Shown here piece after piece: positions 6,348 through 37,843 of a stretch of 40,794 nt of DNA (positions within the stretch are counted from its first letter, which is position 1; every line of letters begins with the position of its first letter). The stretch is taken from the NCBI GenBank assembly GCA_013388555.1, contig JACAFD010000088.1, forward strand, positions 1 through 40,794. Reading direction: 5' to 3'. Origin of the DNA: Nitrospirota bacterium (lineage in GTDB: Bacteria; Nitrospirota; Nitrospiria; Nitrospirales; Nitrospiraceae). The position numbers and the translations under genes were made by a program. The notes under the pieces are model-generated. The model saw only the letters and a program-made list of their open reading frames with translations. It did not search any database and was not told the DNA's origin.

Positions 6348-6794
6348 CTAGCGGATGGGTTCCGGAGCAGGGGCAGGGGTAGGGGCCTCATTCGAATCGG
6401 CGATCCCCAGAAATCGGATGGGTCGATTGCCTTCTAGATGGTCCGGGGTAATGATATAGGTACCGTAGAGACTGGTGTTCCAGACGCTCTTGGCTGCATG
6501 TTCATCTCCAGCGGTAAATACATAGGTGAGTCCTCCGACAATCCCTCCACCGATGGCGAAGGCTAGCTTTAGCGGAAGATACAACAGGGTGGATAAACCG
6601 GCAGCCACTTGCATACCTGCGCTTGACGCGGTTCCGCCTTCGGTGCTTTGGCTCGACGGGGAGCCCGTACTTTCTTGGCTCCACGCCGATGGCACAATCG
6701 TGATGGTGCACAGGGCCAGGAGTAGGAAGACTGCCACCAGTTTGAAGCCGGAAACTTCACGGGGGTGACGGGATAGAGACATGTGGGTATTCAC
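6348..6794 (-). CDS. hypothetical secreted/membrane protein
   Basis: N-terminal signal-like hydrophobic segment (FKLVAVFLLLALCTITIVPSAWS) and a second hydrophobic segment. Confidence 0.7.
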   Translation of the reverse strand: MNTHMSLSRHPREVSGFKLVAVFLLLALCTITIVPSAWSQESTGSPSSQSTEGGTASSAGMQVAAGLSTLLYLPLKLAFAIGGGIVGGLTYVFTAGDEHAAKSVWNTSLYGTYIITPDHLEGNRPIRFLGIADSNEAPTPAPAPEPIR

Positions 6795-6931
6795 AAATAA
6801 TCCTCCTTCTTCGATGGGGCGAGCGACGTGGGAGTGGTTAAATCCAAGGCGCTCACCAACGATTCAAGTAGTGGGGTTATAACAAATCCAACTCTGAATG
6901 CAAACCCCCTGCCGCACCAGGGCGGGATGTC

Positions 6932-9597: not shown

Positions 9598-10340
9598 GCT
9601 GGGGAAAGACCTTAGGCTGCTCAGTCGCCCTCTCATTCATCTCTCTGACCGGTTGCGTCCAGGATTCTCCACCTCCTTCGAGGGAGCGCACGGTCTTGCT
9701 CCTGCTGGAGTTACTTCGCGATGAGGGTCCAGAGATGCGGAGAACAGCTGTAGAATCTCTGGGCAAGATCGGCGACCCACAAACCGCGGACCCTATGCTT
9801 CCCCTCATACATGACCCGACAGCAATAGTTCGGGAAGCATCAGTGTTAGCCATGGGACGGGTGAAACCCACAGCCACCCATAAAGTGATCGGCCTGTTGA
9901 CGCAGGCGCTGGAGGATCCTACCGAATCGGTTCGGCAGGCGGCGGTGGTGGCGATCGGGGACATCGAACCAGGGTTTCAATTGTTGCAGCCCGTTATAAG
10001 GTTATTGCAATCTTCGGATGTGACGATTAGGAGAGCCGTAGTGAAGGCTTTCTTGCAAATTGACGCGAGCCAATTGATCCCTGCACTCATCGCAGCTGGG
10101 GGTGACTCCGATACGGAGGTTCGCCAGGGAATCGTGGCAGCGGTGGGGGAATGGGGTGGAGGAGCGGTCTCTCCTTGGCTCAGAGAGCGCTTGGCTCAAG
10201 ATCCCTCGCCTGGGGTGCGAGCAGAAGCAGCCTATCGACTGGGAATGCTCAGTGATTCTGATACGAAGGCTGCGCTGGAAAAGGCGGTGGCGAAGGATCC
10301 AGATAGTGGGGTGCGGGGCTGGGCGAAACGGGGAATTTAG
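9594..10340 (+). CDS. HEAT-repeat lipoprotein
   Basis: GTG start overlaps the tatA stop by 4 nt (GTGA); lipobox LTGC; repeated helices such as EMRRTAVESLGKIGDPQTADPMLPLIHD. Confidence 0.85.
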   Translation: MSWGKTLGCSVALSFISLTGCVQDSPPPSRERTVLLLLELLRDEGPEMRRTAVESLGKIGDPQTADPMLPLIHDPTAIVREASVLAMGRVKPTATHKVIGLLTQALEDPTESVRQAAVVAIGDIEPGFQLLQPVIRLLQSSDVTIRRAVVKAFLQIDASQLIPALIAAGGDSDTEVRQGIVAAVGEWGGGAVSPWLRERLAQDPSPGVRAEAAYRLGMLSDSDTKAALEKAVAKDPDSGVRGWAKRGI

Positions 10341-27071: not shown

Positions 27072-28388
27072 ATGCGCGGTGACATTGTCATTATCGGTGG
27101 TGGGCTGGCCGGGTCTGAAGCGGCTTGGCAGGCGGCCAATCGCGGCGCGAAAGTAACGTTGTATGAAATGCGCCCTAAAGAGATGACGCAGGCACACAAG
27201 ACCGGTGGTTTGGCTGAGCTGGTCTGTTCGAATTCGCTCGGCTCCGCGGATCTTCTGAATGCCCCAGGTATTTTGAAAGAAGAAATGCGCCGTCTCAACT
27301 CCCTGATTATTCGGGTGGCGGATGAAGTACGGGTTCCGGCTGGATCGGCCCTAGCCGTTGATCGCGAACAGTTCTCGCTCAGGATTACTCGAGCTTTGGA
27401 GGGGCATCCGAACATTCGCATTCTGCATGAAGAGATGACGGAGATTCCAACAGACTGTCTCTGCATTCTGGCGACCGGCCCTCTGACATCCGATAAATTG
27501 TCTCAGGCGATTGCGCAATTGACCCATTCAAAGCATCTGTACTTCTACGATGCTATCTCTCCGATCGTGGATGCCGACTCCATCAACATGGATGTCGTCT
27601 TTCTTGCATCCCGCTACGACAAAGGCGGTAATGATTATCTCAATTGTCCCATGGACGAGCTGGCCTACAATGCCTTCTATGATGCGTTGCTAGCGGCGGA
27701 GAAAGTCCAACCCAAAGAATTTGAAAAGACGCCCTACTTTGAAGGTTGCATTCCTATTGAAGTGATGGCTGAACGGGGCCGCCAGACCATGCAATTCGGT
27801 CCGTTAAAGCCAGTGGGCCTTGAGAATCCCAAGACTGGTGCCCGCGCTTATGCTGTGGTACAGCTCCGCACGGAAAACGCCCATCGGTCCTGTTACAATC
27901 TCGTGGGATTCCAGACTAAATTGACCTATGGGGAGCAGAAGCGGGTGTTCCGCATGATTCCCGGTCTGGAGCAGGCGGAGTTTTTGCGTTACGGCAGCCT
28001 GCATCGCAACACCTTTATCAATTCCCCTCAACTCCTGCGAGATACCCTTCAGTTCAAAGCGCGCGGCACCCTCTTCTTTGCAGGACAGCTGGTCGGTGTC
28101 GAGGGCTATACGGATTCCGCCGCGATGGGAGGGTTAGCAGGAATCAATGCCGCACGTGGTCTGGCGGGATTGCCGTTGGTGACACCGCCTCCCACCACAG
28201 CACACGGCTGCCTCGTATCGTACATTACGACCACAGACCCTCGGCATTTTCAACCGATGAATACCAATTTCGGGTTGTTCCCTCCCCTTACCACACCGAC
28301 AAGAGACAAGGAGCGCAAACGGCGGCTCATGGGACAACGGGCGCTTGGGGATCTGACGGCATGGATGACGCAATTCGAGCTTTTATGA
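27072..28388 (+). CDS. trmFO: methylenetetrahydrofolate--tRNA-(uracil-5-)-methyltransferase
   Basis: DIVIIGGGLAGSEAAWQAANRGAKVTLYEMRP...FAGQLVGVEGYTDSAAMGGLAGINAAR; start at ATG 27072. Confidence 0.96.
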   Translation: MRGDIVIIGGGLAGSEAAWQAANRGAKVTLYEMRPKEMTQAHKTGGLAELVCSNSLGSADLLNAPGILKEEMRRLNSLIIRVADEVRVPAGSALAVDREQFSLRITRALEGHPNIRILHEEMTEIPTDCLCILATGPLTSDKLSQAIAQLTHSKHLYFYDAISPIVDADSINMDVVFLASRYDKGGNDYLNCPMDELAYNAFYDALLAAEKVQPKEFEKTPYFEGCIPIEVMAERGRQTMQFGPLKPVGLENPKTGARAYAVVQLRTENAHRSCYNLVGFQTKLTYGEQKRVFRMIPGLEQAEFLRYGSLHRNTFINSPQLLRDTLQFKARGTLFFAGQLVGVEGYTDSAAMGGLAGINAARGLAGLPLVTPPPTTAHGCLVSYITTTDPRHFQPMNTNFGLFPPLTTPTRDKERKRRLMGQRALGDLTAWMTQFELL

Positions 28389-29317
28389 CGTTCCTTGAGC
28401 TCGAACGTCATGCATCGCATGAAACAGTGCGCAATTACGCTTCGGATCTTCGACAGTTTCAGTCCTATGCGAGGAGGGAAGATCCGAGAATGCCCACCCT
28501 CGATCCTGCTACGGTGACAACAGAATCCATTCGTGCCTACCTTCATTGGCTGGACCGCAAGCGTGAGAAAAGCACGTCGATGGCTCGGAAGCTCGCCACT
28601 CTCCGCAGCTTCTTTCGTTATTTGCAGCGGGAAGGCATGGTTGCACTCAATCCTGCCGAGGCTATAAGAACGCCGAAACAGCCGAAGCAGCTTCCGCGCG
28701 TCTTGACCAAGGACGACGCGGCAACGTTGATGGAGTTCCCCACTGATCCGGCAGGAGGGTCGCTCCGGGACCGCGCCTTGCTGGAGACCCTCTATTCGAC
28801 CGGGGCTCGCGTGAGTGAACTTGTGGGGATCAATCTCGAAGATCTCCGTTCGTCCGATGGATTGGTCTACTTGCGGGGGAAAGGCAGGAAGGAGCGGATC
28901 GTGCCTATCGGAGCCGTGGCCCTACGTGCCGTTCAGGCATACCTGAATCAGCAGCCCCTGACGAAGTCTCGAGATCTGACGGCAAAGCCGAAGCAAGCTC
29001 CATTACCGATCTTTCGAAATAGCCGAGGCGGGCGGTTAACAACTCGGAGCGTCGCCCGCATCGTGGCTCGCTATTCGAATCGGCTTGCCGGTGGCTTCGT
29101 GAGTCCCCATACACTGCGTCACTCCTTTGCCACCCACCTTCTCGATGAAGGGGCCGACCTGCGATCGATTCAAGAGATGCTTGGGCATGCCTCTTTGAGC
29201 ACGACACAGAAGTATACGCACCTGGCCATGGACCAGCTCCTGGCCGTCTATGATAAGACTCATCCGCGAGCCGGTCGTCCGACCAATGCGCGTGTCGTGA
29301 AGGACATCAAACCATGA
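28361..29317 (+). CDS. xerC: tyrosine recombinase XerC/XerD-like
   Basis: TGARVSELVGINLEDL (R), HTLRHSFATHLLDEGADLRSIQEMLGHASLSTTQKYTHL (HxLRH...Y); follows trmFO. Confidence 0.93.
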   Translation: MDDAIRAFMTFLELERHASHETVRNYASDLRQFQSYARREDPRMPTLDPATVTTESIRAYLHWLDRKREKSTSMARKLATLRSFFRYLQREGMVALNPAEAIRTPKQPKQLPRVLTKDDAATLMEFPTDPAGGSLRDRALLETLYSTGARVSELVGINLEDLRSSDGLVYLRGKGRKERIVPIGAVALRAVQAYLNQQPLTKSRDLTAKPKQAPLPIFRNSRGGRLTTRSVARIVARYSNRLAGGFVSPHTLRHSFATHLLDEGADLRSIQEMLGHASLSTTQKYTHLAMDQLLAVYDKTHPRAGRPTNARVVKDIKP

Positions 29318-34328: not shown

Positions 34329-34442
34329 AACGGGAACCCCTCGCTAACTGTGCGAATACACGGAGGATGACCGTAACACAGGGATTTCCGGCGAGTCAAA
34401 CGCTACGCATCCAGTCCGCCAGATGGCGCACATTCCGACGCC

Positions 34443-34657
34443 TAACCCGCATTATTCATGACGGTTCGTCGCGAAATCGCGTAGTCGCCATGCGAGACAG
34501 GCGCGCGGAGCCGCGAGGGAGGGAGACATACTTGAAACAGTATGTTGACCGATCGAACGGCGAGCCCGCCTGCCTGGACGCCGGGCCACCGCGTCCAGGC
34601 TTGTCGCAGCGGCGAATCCGCGATTGCAGCAGAAGCGTTCATGAATAATGCGGGTTA
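34443..34657. mobile_element. MITE-like palindromic element without an ORF
   Basis: 19-bp perfect terminal inverted repeats TAACCCGCATTATTCATGA (34443-34461) / TCATGAATAATGCGGGTTA (34639-34657); subterminal sequences also loosely complementary; inner 9-bp hairpin CCTGGACGC/GCGTCCAGG. Confidence 0.75.
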
Positions 34658-36181: not shown

Positions 36182-36462
36182 AGCTCCTCCGACATGGAAT
36201 GTGTAAGTATTCATAAATGATACACACGCGAATCAGGAGACGCAAGCGAAGCGAACGTCCGTCTTGGTAGCGCAGGAACCGCAAGGCGGTCAAATCAGTC
36301 CTGCTAGCAGAATAGGCTCATCCTGATTAATCATATGCCAATGAATTACCAGGTCAGAAAAAACTCCCGGTACATTTTCATATCTTCCGCAAACAAACAC
36401 CCCACTTTTCCTTCTGTGTCCCCGGGGTTGGCTCCAACCGGCCGTTGGGCGTCATTTAGTTG

Positions 36463-36844
36463 TTAACGCATTGCACTTTGGATTTGATCTTCAGCAACTT
36501 TTTCGGTGTCCACTAAGAACTCTTCAGCGAAAGCGTACGCCGCTTGCCAATTGGGAAACGTAGCGGCAAAAAGTTCGATGGCTTTTATTAACTCGGTTCT
36601 GGCATACGACGGAGGAGTACTACGTTCAATGATGCCGTCAAGGACCATTGCTGAGAGTGTGTCTCTGAACTTGTCTTCGACATTCTTGTAAGCAGCCAGA
36701 CCCTTGTCTTTTCCAAAAAAAACTTTTCTTCCCTCGATTGTTGGAGAAGTCGGCCATGGCCATTACCAAGTGCTGCAATGAGTTGAATGTGTGCGGGAAG
36801 TTCGTTTGAAACGCCGCAGCATTGGTCCAGTTGGTTGTTGCCAT
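36463..36844 (-). pseudogene. cassette-type hypothetical gene interrupted by a +1 homopolymer frameshift
   Basis: MATTNWTNAAAFQTNFPHTFNSLQHLVMAMADFSNNRGKKS... continues in another frame as ...GKDKGLAAYKNVEDKFRDTLSAMVLDGIIERSTPPSYARTELIKAIELFAATFPNWQ...QSAMR; A8 run at 36715-36722, 7 would be in frame. Confidence 0.65.
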
Positions 36845-36865
36845 GAAAAGCTCTCCTCCTATGAC

Positions 36866-36926
36866 GCCCAACGCTTTGGGTGAGACGGCGCGGCCCGCCG
36901 CGTCTTTCTCAACTCAAGAGTTAGGC
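36866..36926 (-). other. integron-type attC recombination site
   Basis: Minus strand GCCTAAC (RYYYAAC) ... GTTGGGC (GTTRRRY), 61 bp, complementary inner arms (TTGAGTTGAGA / TCTCACCCAAA); stop codon of the upstream ORF lies in GCCTAAC and the next ORF starts 21 nt after the site. Confidence 0.72.
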
Positions 36927-37340
36927 CGCGCGCGCCCCTTCGCGAAGGCGCTCATACGCCTGCTCAAGATCCGAAACGTACTTCGCAACGTTGGCCTCCA
37001 GTACAGCCAGCTCCGACTTCTCTTCTTCGGTCGCGTCTCTGGAGCGAAAGCCCGATATGTGGGTGGCATCCGCCACCCGCAGCCGAGAGTTGATGCGATC
37101 GATCCGAGAGCGGTGATGGTCAACGAGCGTTGTGATGGCTGAGAGTTGGGCGGTAGCCTCTTGTGCTGAAGCTGTCCGCTCGGCCTCGCTTCGGGCCAGC
37201 TTCATTTCTTCACGCGTGGCTTGCAGCTCAAGGCGTTGCAACTCGAGCTCACGACGCTGCAACAGAATTGCGTAAATGAGGCCGGCGAAGGCAAGGCCGA
37301 AACGGAGTTGCAAGCCAAAGGACCACGACTGTAGCCACAA
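36921..37340 (-). CDS. hypothetical membrane-anchored coiled-coil protein (putative cassette gene; 5' end uncertain)
   Basis: Hydrophobic N-terminus then LQRRELELQRLELQATREEMKLARSEAERTASAQEATAQL; TAA stop embedded in the attC site. Confidence 0.55.
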   Translation of the reverse strand: MWLQSWSFGLQLRFGLAFAGLIYAILLQRRELELQRLELQATREEMKLARSEAERTASAQEATAQLSAITTLVDHHRSRIDRINSRLRVADATHISGFRSRDATEEEKSELAVLEANVAKYVSDLEQAYERLREGARAA

Positions 37341-37429
37341 GAAGCAGGGCTACGAAAATGGACGGATTGCGCGGTAGTTTTCTTTTCCCACCAGGGAAGC
37401 CAAATGCTGGTCCATGAATTCTTCTCGCG

Positions 37430-37529
37430 GCTTAACGGCCCCGCGGCTCACCGGCAGGTGCGGGAACAATCGGAGGTTGTGCAGCCGCAGGTTCGGGGGA
37501 CGCGAAGCGTCGCCCGAACCAGTGTTTAG
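37430..37529 (-). other. degenerate attC-like site
   Basis: GTTAAGC and GCCTAAAC on the minus strand about 90 nt apart, enclosing a hairpin GGTTCGGG-g-GACGC-GAA-GCGTC-g-CCCGAACC (37490-37520). Confidence 0.3.
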
Positions 37530-37655
37530 GCCGATCCGCACAAGAGCCGGATCTGCCAACTCTATCCGTATAACACGCCATTGGTTCCCCTGAAAAATAC
37601 GCGACAAACTCTACCATTTCAGTCAGTGGCAATTTTTCTGGTAGTTGGCCCAGGA

Positions 37656-37843
37656 GGATGCTCAAAAAGGCCGTCCAGCGAGGCCGCAGGCGAATCGAAA
37701 CCGGAAGCGTACCCTCAGGGGCGCACGGTGCGACGAATAAGGAGCACCACGTTTGTGCGCGCCGCCGAGTCGGTGAGGCGGCCGGGTCCCCGTTGAGGAT
37801 TTTGATGAGTCGAGAACGAAGCTGGCGGGCTTTTTCAGCATCC
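37656..37843 (+). repeat. interspersed palindromic element, copy 3
   Basis: GGATGCTCAAAAAGGCCGTCCAGCGAGGCCGCAG ... GAGAACGAAGCTGGCGGGCTTTTTCAGCATCC; ends just before the cysNC stop codon. Confidence 0.8.

Follow-up and report, generated by a model that had tools for sequence, protein, structure and literature searches.

In Xanthomonas, chromosomal integrons lie downstream of ilvD (PMC12444791). For the phylum considered here, the IntegronFinder 2.0 study lists two CALINs, both in Ca. Nitrospira inopinata, and reports no attI (PMC9024848); by the default of that program, a CALIN has at least two attC sites (PMC9024848). That study is the only report on Nitrospira integrons that we found in the open literature. 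Here we analyse a 40,794-nucleotide stretch of DNA (the window) from a bacterium that is Nitrospira-like by its gene content, together with a comparison set of 32 genomes of the genus and 176 of the family Nitrospiraceae. We conclude, with a probability of about 0.9, that positions 37622-34440 on the minus strand hold the relic of a sedentary chromosomal integron with a fixed position between cysNC and an mrp-like gene.

A probable integron relic between cysNC and an mrp-like gene

Read in the direction of the cassettes, the relic opens with a putative promoter and an attI-like site. A mini-cassette without a gene comes next, then two cassettes with genes, an attC that has been cut, sequence inserted later and, last, a terminal R' box. 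The features, all on the minus strand and with a slash marking a crossover point or edge, are as follows.

39690-37846, minus: cysNC (sulfate adenylyltransferase/APS kinase, TIGR02034), the fixed left neighbour, its DNA 83-89% identical in genomes of the genus
37622-37594, minus: putative cassette promoter Pc, with a -35 box CTGAAA (37622-37617), a 17-bp spacer and a -10 box TATTTT (37599-37594)
37576-37518, minus: attI-like site ending in ...GGCAGATCCGGCTCTTGTGCGGATCGGCCTAAACACTG/, conserved beside cysC in relatives
37519-37430, minus: cassette 0, a gene-less mini-cassette that starts G/TTCGGGCGACGC... and holds the right half of an attC of the ~132-bp type, with R' box GTTAAGC (37436-37430)
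37436-36926, minus: body of cassette 1, with a short membrane/coiled-coil ORF (36921-37340)
36926-36866, minus: attC1, 61 bp, crossover G/TT at 36872/36871
36872-36444, minus: cassette 2, which starts with GTTGGGCGTCAT and ends with its exact complement ATGACGCCCAAC; ORF from ATG 36844 to TAA 36465-36463
36450-36385, minus: attC2, R'' side only (GCCCAAC), truncated at the border of the vapBC block
36384-35560, minus: vapBC block, an insertion that also occurs in other species (VapC NF047959, VapB PF09957)
34446-34440, minus: terminal R' box GTTAGGC, the far end of the array, upstream of mrp; homology resumes here in most relatives
34328-33408, minus: mrp/ApbC-like P-loop ATPase gene, the fixed right neighbour, conserved in relatives (best NCBIfam match MrpORP, 258 bits, below its cut-off)

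The original prediction, made from the DNA letters of the window, had described an integrase-less cassette remnant of CALIN type. A remnant without integrase it is, but the extent proposed was too small, with both the attI-like site and the array end lying outside it, and the name CALIN had to be dropped: because an attI is present, the locus is no CALIN as the term is usually understood. A promoter-like Pc and attI are retained about 600 bp upstream of attC1, as is the far end of the array, and the window has one complete attC, the only one above threshold, against the default of two, while the lack of a nearby integron integrase is as in a CALIN. Set against a complete integron, the locus has attI and three attC sites in different states (one complete, one reduced to its right half and one truncated to its R'' side), and it lacks an adjacent intI. 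That only one complete attC is left counts against the relic reading.

The attC site between the two gene cassettes

The 61-bp sequence of attC1 agrees letter for letter with the one first reported, so that the coordinates given for it were right. Its boxes run in the order R'' GCCTAAC, 5 nt, L'' AGTTGAGA (with one bulge), a GC-rich stem, L' TCTCACC, 6 nt and R' GTTGGGC, and this spacing and architecture are those of class 1 integron attCs (from two plasmids, L060 and L061) and of Nitrospiraceae arrays that lie beside intI. The gene-attC-gene layout that had been proposed also holds, as ORF 36921-37340 has its stop codon in the R'' box, and the R' box is followed by the next ATG (36844), which has a Shine-Dalgarno sequence.

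Plain folding of the site was weak (z=-1.1 for the cassette strand and z=-1.9 for the other), and a rule-based motif and stem finder alone gave about one match per shuffled window. Since neither was specific enough, we built an attC covariance model (R1), trained on 16 attC sites with the window's own left out. Within the window, R1 scored attC1 at 27.8 bits (E=1e-4) on the cassette strand, compared with 13.2 bits for the runner-up and 10.9 bits for the opposite strand of the same site; over the whole genome of the organism the E-value of attC1 was a modest 0.009, and three matches on other contigs scored higher. An Rfam scan returned no family near attC1. The covariance-model check that the original prediction had suggested thus found the site where it was expected and showed it to be real, whereas the folding of the bottom strand, suggested alongside, was by itself weak. 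The folding scores, like the ease with which shuffled windows yield simple motif matches, would be in keeping with a chance palindrome or a terminator between two ordinary genes, but such an origin has next to no probability in view of the covariance score on the correct strand, and we count it as already refuted by the attI, the two array edges and the complementary R' and R'' boxes of cassette 2.

An attI-like site and a putative promoter at the cysC edge

The attI-like site of the window matches one in an intact Nitrospira integron (genome G015, locus L043). There, a site ending in ...GGCAGATCCGGTTCTTATATGGATCCGCCTAAACATTG/TTAGAC stands directly downstream of intI and in the same orientation, and a cassette with an attC comes next. 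The attI model (R2) includes the window's own site; re-scored with a weight matrix built from the 42 other copies, the window attI reached 53.5 bits, while the best score in 100 shuffled windows was 16.1. The -35/-10 pair stands 46 nt upstream of attI, as in other copies, and the position and 17-bp spacing of Pc are those of a TTGAAA-17-TATTGT pair found in the majority of 43 attI copies that were compared; Pc may act as a promoter. The junction of the window attI has an extra G (CACTG/GTTCGGG), which we count against the relic reading.

Sites of the attI type also lie near cysC in G021, G008, G011, G028 and G002, and G005 keeps the right part only. After the cysC-side attI each genome continues with its own sequence, starting with an R-box-like GTT, with the exception that G021 and G005 share their first cassette. 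In G008 the cysNC locus has a tandem arrangement, with attI site and array end each present twice (L026, 2721-2783 and 6177-6238). Another attI of G008, in L044, was considered as an intI-adjacent site and rejected, as about 2 kb separate it from intI upstream and it forms part of a promoter-attI unit (see below) that follows an attC.

Cassettes and later insertions

The right half-attC of cassette 0 is 91% identical to long attCs in L064 and L066 (genomes G139 and G141), and the start of this cassette matches, at 93% identity, what comes directly after another attI, in G016 (L108). The ORF of cassette 1, which is probably frame-disturbed at its 5' end, has no Pfam match above cut-off and no NCBIfam match, and its protein has only weak partial matches in three other genomes of the family. 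The reading frame of the cassette 2 ORF (36844-36463) shifts by one base in an A/T run near 36722-36730; an intact homologue of 126 aa, 58% identical over 83 aa, is found in a Desulfobacula MAG (L152), where R1 found no attC. Neither cassette gene has a close relative in the 176 family genomes, and the expectation that the cargo would consist of small uncharacterised proteins was borne out. Cassette 2 is closed by the R'' box GCCCAAC (36450-36444), which is exactly complementary to its R' box, and no GTTRRRY partner for attC2 is found before 36384.

At that position the vapBC block begins. It had been taken for the outer flank of the cluster, a placement that we reject, since vapBC belongs to a separately shared block within the interval of the array. 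This block is 92-94% identical in four relatives (L023, L024, L041 and L042), with a sharp common edge at 36383/36384. A GGAAAATGTACCGGGAGTCTTTTCT-like motif near the edge of the block recurs in L043, which suggests a mobile unit.

Other stretches in and around the array are shared as well. A repeat of about 190 bp directly downstream of cysC (37655-37843) has numerous copies, 84-97% identical, across Nitrospira genomes, and a second dispersed repeat of about 215 bp (34442-34657), with many copies in the genus, abuts the terminal R' box. Between this repeat and the vapBC block, a block with a plus-strand gene for a small metal-binding protein (SMBP, PF16785; 34795-35362) is about 95% identical in G015 and G019, where its neighbours are 85-88% identical, and was likely exchanged recently.

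A fixed slot with different cassettes in related genomes

About ten relatives have the cysNC-mrp slot with the same attI edge, the same terminal edge or both, and differ in the cassettes between. At the attI edge, the relatives part from one another exactly after ...AAACATTG/TT. At 34446, most resume homology at G/TTRGGC and go on into a conserved GGAATGTGCGCC-like stretch. Upstream of this point each has a sequence of its own, in several cases with attC matches. Because attI edge and terminal box recur with varied content, the interval from one to the other is the position of a cassette array between cysNC and mrp. Matches to the attC model lie in the same slot in L023-L026 and L028-L032, and the first cassette of the cysNC array of G002 (L032) is 93% identical to sequence that follows an attC-like stretch in another genus (L146). 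Cassettes have therefore been exchanged at fixed points, with content that differs between the attI edge and the G/TTRRRY end. The original prediction had named the same two genes fixed in place among close relatives as the outcome that would speak against cassettes; the relatives carry other cassettes there, and the two genes are without close kin in the family. Four loci (L024, L034, L040 and L042) are without one clean array edge, and these, too, we count against the relic reading.

Matches to the attC model are scattered over many contigs in 25 of the 32 genus genomes, as might be expected if the locus were a CALIN that arose when cassettes were inserted at a secondary (attG-type) site and had never been a full integron. 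We regard this origin as very improbable: it is already contradicted by the conserved promoter-attI at the array edge, and by the 3' stubs of intI in G002 and G005 described next.

Integrase genes and stubs

No match to intI (TIGR02249) above cut-off was found in the genome of the organism, a MAG of 327 contigs that is 99.5% complete, and the absence of an integrase that had been noted for the window thus extends to the assembly. Among the relatives, intI above cut-off is present in 2 of 32 genus genomes and 19 of 176 family genomes. The complete genes of the two genus genomes are at other loci, away from cysNC-mrp, and none of the 32 genomes has a complete intI at cysNC-mrp itself; 3' stubs of intI do lie beside cysC in G002 (L032) and G005 (L029), and intI therefore once stood at this locus. 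The proposed search for intI and attI outside the window accordingly gave integrase genes in relatives and attI in multiple copies. A recombinase gene in the window (28361-29317) was considered for the missing integrase and rejected; it belongs to the XerC/D family, is XerC-like, falls below the integron cut-off and follows a trmFO/gid-like ORF.

The further attC matches in the organism's own genome are these.

Contig C153 (L084), 1-49 and 949-1020: a partial attC at the very start of the contig, and an attC about 950 bp from that end
Contig C254 (L085), 6752-6811: attC at a contig end, followed by block A of a promoter-attI unit
Contig C311 (L086), 9999-10070: attC at a contig end

Since these matches lie at or near contig ends, further arrays exist that are broken in the assembly, and in a MAG so fragmented an intI may have gone unassembled, a further point against the relic reading. 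This bears on whether the locus is still active in trans, with an IntI encoded elsewhere in the genome or on incoming mobile DNA exchanging cassettes at attI. CALINs are stated to be mobilisable by IntI in trans (PMC12444791), neighbouring species have different cassettes at the same attI, and G008 combines intI at another locus with attI sites at cysNC. Because complete intI genes occur in two genus genomes and our own assembly is fragmented, trans action has to be kept in mind, but we consider it unlikely, given that no intI is found in an assembly of such completeness and that the frameshift in cassette 2 and the truncation of attC2 are as for an inactive array. The relic would then now be static, save for any IntI acting in trans.

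Promoter-attI units across the Nitrospiraceae

Sequence matching the attI model R2 is present in 127 of the 176 family genomes, in up to 18 copies per genome and mostly without intI, which scores above cut-off in only 16 of these 127; single-contig genomes without an intI match (G048, G051, G063, G085, G124 and G148) are among those that carry it. In many cases the copy is the right-hand portion of a unit without a gene, about 240-300 bp long, that consists of a block A, the promoter and attI, and at least partial matches to this unit occur in 114 of the 176 genomes. Its left edge is exactly G/TTAATGC (with small variants) after differing attC or attC-like stretches in more than 30 contexts, one of which is C254 of our own assembly. 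Paired comparisons of loci support this edge. One cassette and its attC (98% identical over 201 bp) precede the left block of the unit in G022 and a different cassette in G028. Two more attCs (96% and 90% identical over 72 bp) each stand before the left block in one genome and before a different sequence in a second genome. Promoter-attI units repeat every 0.6-3.5 kb in arrays at L096, L097, L098, L106 and other loci of the family, with attC-G/TTAATGC on the left and attI on the right.

The favoured reaction of integron integrases is attI x attC, and for this reason a promoter-attI unit would be able to enter at any attC. We think it fairly probable, on the pattern of these edges, that the landing site itself became a cassette, namely that the gene-less promoter-attI unit has been inserted by integrase at attC, spreading promoters and entry points in trans. 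Mobility of the unit is inferred from sequence, and nested fusions of arrays in series could be the source of some of the same edges. The window has no G/TTAATGC edge directly after an attC; its attI is of the cysNC platform type and would be a platform-type relative of the unit.

Discussion

In the history that we propose for the relic, an IntI of the type found in L043 would have inserted cassettes at attI, downstream of the promoter. With attI lying 3' of intI, integrase and cassettes would have shared one orientation, and intI would later have been lost from the cysNC-mrp locus. What is left today is the promoter-attI, the gene-less cassette, two gene cassettes whose reading frames are disturbed, and a truncated attC that the vapBC and repeat insertions have overrun.

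These findings place an ancestral chromosomal integron in a nitrifier genus for which we found only two CALINs reported, in one species. The locus exemplifies loss of intI with retention of attI, and its exact array edges can be used to read cassette turnover across species. Taken alone, the window is a further attI-bearing chromosomal integron relic; what is new is the family's multi-copy promoter-attI units. If these units move as cassettes, an array need not rely on a single promoter and a single entry point, and their mobility would bear on the expression of silent cassettes far from Pc and on the persistence of integrase-less arrays. We found no earlier description of a promoter-attI cassette in the open literature, which was our scope, subscription papers and preprints falling outside it.

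As in Xanthomonas, an ancestral integron occupies one fixed locus at which intI is often inactivated or deleted, with lineage-specific cassettes and with attC clusters elsewhere; here, however, the anchor is cysNC-mrp, none of the 32 genus genomes has a complete intI at the locus, and attI is multi-copy (PMC12444791). In Treponema, too, intI points with the cassettes, and one species keeps attC sites after loss of intI, but Treponema belongs to another phylum, and in the case described here it is attI that is kept after intI loss, in multiple copies (PMC3607928). The CALINs of Ca. N. inopinata are likewise cassettes without integrase in Nitrospira, whereas here we find attI, array ends and complete intI in other members of the family (PMC9024848). 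The promoter-attI unit has its nearest counterparts in two known kinds of cassette. It resembles the delta-attI cassettes of class 1 and class 2 integrons, in which the 3' recombination site is derived from attI and not attC; those cassettes carry a gene and mostly short attI fragments, while the Nitrospiraceae unit is gene-less, comprises promoter and attI, and is found in most family genomes (PMC12901181). Finally, the promoter cassettes of Vibrio superintegrons are also gene-less and can drive downstream cassettes (PMC11014356), but they end in attC, whereas the Nitrospiraceae unit ends in attI and would add an insertion point (PMC11014356).
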